Shown here one piece after another: positions 19,310 to 19,348 of a stretch of DNA of 64,000 nucleotides. The stretch's first letter is position 1, and every line of letters begins with the position of its first letter. The position numbers were made by a program, and so were the translations under genes. The notes under the pieces are model-generated. The model made no database searches and had not been told where the DNA came from. It saw only the letters and a program-made list of their open reading frames with translations. The DNA is from Acinetobacter nectaris CIP 110549 (GTDB lineage Bacteria > Pseudomonadota > Gammaproteobacteria > Pseudomonadales > Moraxellaceae), in contig NZ_KI530734.1 of NCBI RefSeq assembly GCF_000488215.1, positions 1-64,000 of the forward strand, written 5' to 3'.

Positions 19310-19348
19310 GGATGCTTTTTAAAATACGCTTTTGCTTAAAAAGCATCC
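19310..19348 (+). repeat. Perfect 13-bp inverted repeat in front of xpt
   Basis: GGATGCTTTTTAA (19310-19322) and TTAAAAAGCATCC (19336-19348) are exact reverse complements with a 13-base loop. The right arm ends seven bases before the GAGG ribosome site of xpt. No T-run follows, so it is not a plain terminator. It could be an operator or an mRNA leader hairpin. Confidence 0.85.

Follow-up and report, generated by a model that had tools for sequence, protein, structure and literature searches.

Among the leader elements that precede xpt-like genes elsewhere in bacteria are the purine and xanthine riboswitches. The PurR box of E. coli, which belongs to a regulator of the LacI family, is one compact 16-bp palindrome. 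In Bacillus, each PurBox is 14 bp long with a central CGAA/TTCG; the boxes come in inverted pairs with a spacer of 16 or 17 bp and sit at purine-metabolism genes, xpt being among those listed (passages of PMC8789054). For A. baumannii, excerpts of PMC11500612 report that there is no PurR orthologue and conclude that purine regulation differs from that of E. coli.

Titles and abstract openings of the literature on Acinetobacter xpt, PurR, xanthine riboswitches and start-site maps hold nothing on xpt control in the genus, and the term "xpt" does not appear in passages of PMC12802169, PMC12153292, PMC11481871, PMC11500612 and PMC13037415. Two Acinetobacter proteomics papers name xanthine phosphoribosyltransferase once each.

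Here, we describe an inverted repeat (dyad) in a 64,000-nucleotide stretch of the Acinetobacter nectaris genome, which we call the window. The gene that follows it we take to be xpt, on the basis of what is known of its family and of an earlier reading of the sequence. In design the dyad resembles the PurBoxes, a pair of AT-flanked boxes in inverted orientation, each near 14 bp in length, whose spacer can differ by a single base (compare passages of PMC8789054), but its dimensions are others. Unlike the PurBoxes, its arms (GGATGCTTTTTAA / TTAAAAAGCATCC) do not have a CGAA/TTCG core, its full arms are separated by 13 bp in the window and not by 16–17 bp, and it lies over the -10 box and the start site of a predicted promoter, with one site per genome in the searches we made. 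Relatives with a 25-base spacing and the number of spacing changes also exceed the one-base tolerance of the PurBoxes. The PurR box of E. coli is a palindromic operator at purine genes, as the dyad may be, but the arms of the dyad are 13 bp apart.

Riboswitches differ from the dyad in that the start of the predicted RNA falls within the repeat and in that Rfam gives no match. The earlier, sequence-only reading had held that the repeat looks like neither the E. coli PurR box nor the Bacillus purine riboswitch, and for the riboswitch this is borne out: no such match is found either at the gathering score or to an E-value of 10. Membership in a known RNA family was rejected, as nothing matches at the gathering score and the only matches to E 10, to microRNA models and to Listeria rli38, score far below the respective cut-offs.

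The dyad is real, it is conserved, and it is of a known general kind, the promoter-overlapping dyad. Going by sequence comparison, it could well be a two-armed operator that would block the xpt promoter, PurBox-like in design but with another sequence and without the Bacillus repressor, although we hold this view tentatively. That the symmetry is a matter of DNA and not of RNA we believe with moderate confidence.

An exact inverted repeat ahead of xpt

A repeat search shows that the two arms are 13 nt each and 100% complementary, with 13 nt between them in the window (Table 1). It thus agrees with the sequence-only reading, which had noted an exact 13-bp inverted repeat ahead of xpt, seven bases from the ribosome site and with no T-run. 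The distance from the end of the right arm is seven bases to AGAGG (19356–19360) and 20 bases to the GTG at 19369, which we took as the start of xpt. The eight bases 3′ of the right arm read AATTTGTA and hold no T-run.

Table 1. Positions of the dyad, the predicted promoter and the neighbouring genes in the window.
Feature	Position	Strand	Basis or remark
DUF3108 protein gene, possible source of read-through RNA	18580..19272	+	PF11306
-35 box TTGCAA of the predicted xpt promoter	19298..19303	+	CTTG invariant and at fixed distance in 140/140 upstreams
Left arm of dyad	19310..19322	+	promoter spacer into -10 box; core GGNTGC; covarying position -8
-10 box TAAAAT (TACAAT in some relatives)	19320..19325	+	promoter scan and conservation
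Predicted transcription start	19330..19334	+	inferred, 5–9 nt after the -10 box; about 19332 at 7 nt
Possible short 5′-leader hairpin TGCTT-AAA-AAGCA	19333..19345	+	fold of the predicted transcript, not above chance
Right arm of dyad	19336..19348	+	core GCANCC; covarying position +4
Ribosome-binding site TAGAGG	19355..19360	+	GAGG in all 162 genomes that match the promoter-leader pattern
xpt (xanthine phosphoribosyltransferase; 191 aa, GTG start)	19369..19944	+	Pribosyltran PF00156, relatives

The repeat exceeds chance, since five perfect repeats with arms of at least 13 and a loop of 3–25 occur in the 64-kb window and none in 12 dinucleotide shuffles. Judged by eye, three of the five resemble ordinary terminators. 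An intrinsic terminator at the dyad itself was rejected: there is no T-run on either side and none was called at the site. We also rejected a coding stretch from the ATG at 19312, a mechanical open reading frame with its start inside the left arm, because the spacing of the arms changes about 15 times among relatives.

Other repeats of the window deserve a brief mention. Those at 9574–9603 and 46842–46871 are perfect 13-bp repeats with an A-tract outside and a T-tract behind, and look like terminators. The former has AAAAAAGCACCT as its core, which makes the dyad seen in many relatives (GGTGCTTTTT..AAAAAGCACC) an inside-out version of this kind of hairpin. With 15 bp and a loop of 5, the repeat at 21943–21977 is the longest perfect one that the scan returned; it lies between a BrkB-like gene and the next gene and is likely to be a two-way terminator. 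A further perfect inverted repeat (16311–16342; 13 bp, loop 6) lies within the start of the open reading frame 16283–16768.

The repeat lies across a conserved, predicted promoter

The predicted promoter of xpt is of the sigma-70 type (TTGCAA-N16-TAAAAT), with hexamers that are 16 bp apart, within the 16–18 bp of this type, and kept in relatives. Our evidence for it is conservation and not the promoter scan, because the scan alone returns seven promoter-like sites versus 5.7 in shuffles. The string CTTG-N16-TA(A/C)AATA is present upstream of xpt in 140 of 140 cases, the third base of the -10 hexamer being A in 122 and C in 18, and TTT at -16 to -14 is invariant. Together with the leader and GAGG, the promoter forms a pattern that matches 162 of 175 genomes of the genus, once in each. 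Nine of the 13 genomes without the pattern have no xpt (G030, G031, G032, G045, G077, G110, G131, G142 and G143), so that xpt and the promoter-leader element co-occur; two more have an insertion in the leader (G014 and G144), and the remaining two are G265 and G273. Among named Acinetobacter loci, 63 of 63 have the promoter, and in 45 none of the five inner dyad pairs is mismatched.

This predicted promoter shares sequence with the left arm of the dyad and with its loop. Where transcription would start was estimated from a range of distances that stems from S. aureus (PMC5094136, in part); the commonest distance there is 7 nt, a value also cited for E. coli. On this estimate the start would fall between the arms, and the left arm would be missing from the main xpt mRNA. 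The sequence-only reading had offered an operator or an mRNA hairpin that gates purine salvage. With the start predicted between the arms, under a promoter kept throughout the genus, we favour the operator, a site in DNA, and the hairpin is weakened. The same reading had said that transcription beginning downstream of the repeat would speak against it, and a start between the arms comes close to that for the RNA form.

An RNA hairpin could still form if some or most of the xpt RNA came from a start that lies further upstream, with read-through of the DUF3108 gene as one example. The 13-bp hairpin would then control decay or translation of the mRNA, a scenario that we consider unlikely. The arms do fold strongly (-17.1 kcal/mol, z -5.58, with 0 of 200 shuffles as low), and a source of such RNA may be present. 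All 140 upstreams have an open frame of 232–268 codons (stop to stop) at the place of the DUF3108 gene, in the same orientation as xpt and ending 23–98 bp before the -10 box; the DUF3108 domain was scored in the window, and the frames of relatives were matched by size and place. In the window, no terminator-like site was called between the DUF3108 gene and xpt. Against the hairpin, the conserved promoter covers the left arm, so that its transcript would lack that arm, and the ribosome site lies outside the arms.

Conservation and loss of the dyad in Acinetobacter

Xpt is present in 140 of the 149 genomes of the genus that we searched. We read the upstream region of each of the 140 genes, which yielded 81 distinct arm-to-arm sequences, and counted changes on a tree built from the upstream frame and a piece of xpt. 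Positions on the left are numbered backwards from the -10 box, starting at its first base, and those on the right forwards from the G of GCA. Since GCA also served to find the right arm, its own conservation is partly by construction.

The five inner pairs, -5/+1 to -9/+5, are all matched in 106 of the 140 upstreams, and perfect arms reach up to 15 bp in relatives. Conservation of the left arm is concentrated in TGC, bases that to our knowledge are part of no promoter element. They change 3, 2 and 2 times on the tree (-7, -6 and -5), compared to 30 and 22 times at the neighbouring positions -10 and -11; positions -8 and -9 change 11 and 13 times. Mismatches in the interior of the T/A tract are common, for example, pair 3 is not T-A in 26 of 140.

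The constancy of TGC bears on a further explanation, in which the promoter is followed by a 5′-terminal hairpin, TGCTT-N3..6-AAGCA, that slows decay of the mRNA. Only the right half of the site would then matter and the left arm would be a by-product. All 140 upstreams do keep GCT and GCA, separated by a stretch that varies (the arm itself was found by way of GCA), and the fold of this short stem has a mean z of -3.45 over the 81 distinct sequences, relative to mononucleotide shuffles. The predicted transcript from 19331 to 19372, however, has a z of only -0.27, with 68 of 200 shuffles as low, and such a hairpin would explain neither why TGC is conserved in the left arm nor why -8 and +4 change jointly, as described below. 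We think it improbable.

The dyad has also been lost. In 22 of 140 genomes, the result of six changes on the tree, it has decayed to at most three of the five inner pairs, while xpt and the promoter remain, which counts against an operator. All 22 keep both CTTG-N16-TA(A/C)AATA and the loop. The promoter therefore explains why the loop is conserved, and a loop that outlives its stem is a further argument against the RNA hairpin.

The main difficulty for our reading of the site as a DNA dyad is its changing spacing. The cores of the arms are 28 bases apart in 111 genomes, 27 in 25, 25 in two and 69 in two, those last two having lost the dyad. On the tree we count about 15 changes of spacing, most of them between 27 and 28 bases. 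This is unlike the fixed half-site spacing of an operator, and we have lowered our claim for a rigid dimer because of it. An RNA hairpin would tolerate changed spacing.

As far as seen, and judging from the sequences compared, the dyad is probably old within the genus and would be an Acinetobacter feature with later losses. Two loci (L137 and L138, in G144 and G014) have a decayed left arm and carry a 40-base self-complementary insert between GCTT and GAAAAAGCATCC of the leader. A mobile origin of this insert was rejected because it occurs as a single copy in each genome. One genome has two xpt matches about 780 bases apart (G041:C12:15873-17249), one of them with an internal stop; the promoter and the dyad ahead of them are intact.

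Covariation between the arms

One pair of the dyad covaries. At -8/+4, the 140 upstreams have A-T in 67, G-C in 55, T-A in 2, G.T in 4 and other combinations in 12. Both positions change on the same branch seven times, whereas branch-weighted relocation of the changes predicts 1.2 (0 of 300 as high) and simulations of independent change average 0.95 shared branches (0 of 1500 reach seven). The 124 Watson-Crick rows are matched by 3 of 1500 simulations. In five of the seven joint changes a Watson-Crick pair gives way to a different one, which restores complementarity (G-C and A-T are exchanged in three cases, G-C and T-A in two), and the other two, L092 and the clade of L017, L018 and L022, end mismatched.

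Elsewhere the signal fades. Pair -9/+5 is weak, with two shared branches (reached by 19 of 1500 simulations), and at pair -10/+6 there is no more than chance predicts (499 of 1500). Low values also come from some unpaired control columns, with p 0.017 for -7/+4 and two shared branches for -10/+5 (80 of 1500).

Compensatory changes, even at a single pair, are what an RNA hairpin would produce, but the intermediates count against one. A.C intermediates at -8/+4 are at least as common as G.T: A.C is found in four rows that represent four changes (L090, L093, L110 and L139) and, by eye, in G280, and G.T in four rows that represent two (L038, L070, L108 and L117). Similarly, among 65 mismatched cells in the T/A tract of the right arm, G, which would keep the pairing, accounts for 13, compared to 35 for T and 17 for C (these are rows, not events). 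Hence, the comparison across Acinetobacter that the sequence-only reading had proposed turns out mixed: the repeat is conserved and one pair covaries, but without any preference for wobble pairs. Here is a case where covariation alone would suggest an RNA structure, and where the position of the promoter and the types of mismatch point to DNA.

Joint changes may also have a purely mutational cause. Template switching, which has been studied in E. coli (PMC7202029, in part), makes and maintains perfect stems (passages of PMC8794818). It could copy one arm onto the other while the leader holds the right arm and the promoter the left, and the symmetry would be of no use to the cell. Quasipalindromes of this origin resemble the dyad in their near-perfect arms, joint changes and free spacing, and three things expected from homogenisation are observed here: the arms change jointly but show no wobble bias, the spacing is free, and there is no regulon. 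They differ from it in that the arms of the dyad change at unequal rates (13 times at left -9, three times at its partner) and in that mismatches stay uncorrected, both in the interior of the T/A tract (the pair 3 mismatches above) and in a decayed clade with AGAGCC, which has stayed so in 12 genomes. The T/A-tract mismatches and the imbalance at -9 speak against homogenisation as the whole story, and we regard it as a rather unlikely one. Both the RNA and the mutational readings are weakened by these data.

A search for further sites and for a regulator

If the dyad is an operator, one might look for it at other genes. In the genome of 2,668,938 bases, read on both strands, GGATGC-N26..29-GCATCC occurs once in all. 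A further search covered look-alikes of the loop in 12 genomes. Each genome has a single exact match to the core between the arms, at xpt, and with two or three mismatches there are 37 further matches versus 11 for a reversed control, some of which recur across genomes. None of 39 look-alikes (the 37 and two from the own genome) has a full dyad with five inner pairs (chance 2%); four inner pairs, at the best of nine spacings, are found in 10 of 39 (chance about 18%). The short string TGCTTTTTAAAATA, with two mismatches allowed, gives 220 matches versus 97 for its control, and the two best outside xpt were read. A regulon was rejected, given the single site in the own genome and the lack of a complete dyad among the look-alikes. 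Three genomes (G028, G003 and G021; L236, L250 and L251) share the string TTTTTATAACAAGCATTTGCTT together with its flanks; it differs from the xpt loop at three bases and has no dyad.

The Bacillus-type purine-repressor domain PF09182 (PuR_N) is absent from the genome, which counts against an operator; among 14 control genomes, three match it, two of them over the cut-off. This search, and the A. baumannii literature in the parts quoted above, revealed no known purine repressor in Acinetobacter. One LacI-domain match in the genome exceeds the cut-off, and there are eight phosphoribosyltransferase-domain matches, Xpt included.

How an operator would work can be sketched as follows. The two inverted arms, each with its core (GGNTGC / GCANCC) and a T/A tract that points inward, would lie across the -10 box and the start site. 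A putative dimeric or oligomeric regulator would bind both arms and keep RNA polymerase off the sigma-70-type promoter of xpt, and this blocking would set the level of xpt expression and, through it, the salvage of xanthine and guanine. The dyad would in this way gate purine salvage, presumably in response to a purine signal. As no second site was found, such a regulator would serve one gene, a point against the operator.

A regulator of one gene might even be the product of that gene. The PurR protein of Bacillus is built on a phosphoribosyltransferase fold, and a genus-wide, xpt-only operator could conceivably be read by Xpt itself or by another protein of the phosphoribosyltransferase type. 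We think that this is very unlikely, but if it were true, then Acinetobacter would possess a one-gene feedback switch for guanine and xanthine salvage. Whatever the regulator, a conserved dyad that overlies a purine-salvage promoter offers a concrete DNA bait with which to search for it.

xpt outside Acinetobacter

Weak Xpt matches (30–32% identity, E 1e-9 to 1e-10) occur in two of 108 genomes of the family outside the genus, a set of 149 from which 41 genus genomes were taken off. Closer relatives are found in Pseudomonas, with 73–77% identity among the best 80 of 109 Xpt relatives; the named loci of these 80 comprise 63 from Acinetobacter and 17 from Pseudomonas. Neither the promoter pattern (0 of 17) nor GGNTGC-N25..30-GCANC (0 of 17) is present upstream of the Pseudomonas genes.

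The Pseudomonas upstreams have features of their own. At three loci (L206, L211 and L215), xpt is preceded by a repeat of the type GTAGCCCGGATG..CATCCGGGCTAC, which looks to us like a REP element, and the longer REP-like repeat of L206 contains GGATGC-N24-GCATCC. Six others (L208, L212, L213, L217, L219 and L220) have a leader close to GCTTTGCTCTTGAGCCCAGAGG in the last 40 bases before the GTG. This leader resembles the GC.TTTGCTT....AAGC of Acinetobacter, with a possible GCTC/GAGC pair in most of them, and judging from this resemblance the xpt leaders of the two genera may be one shared old leader.
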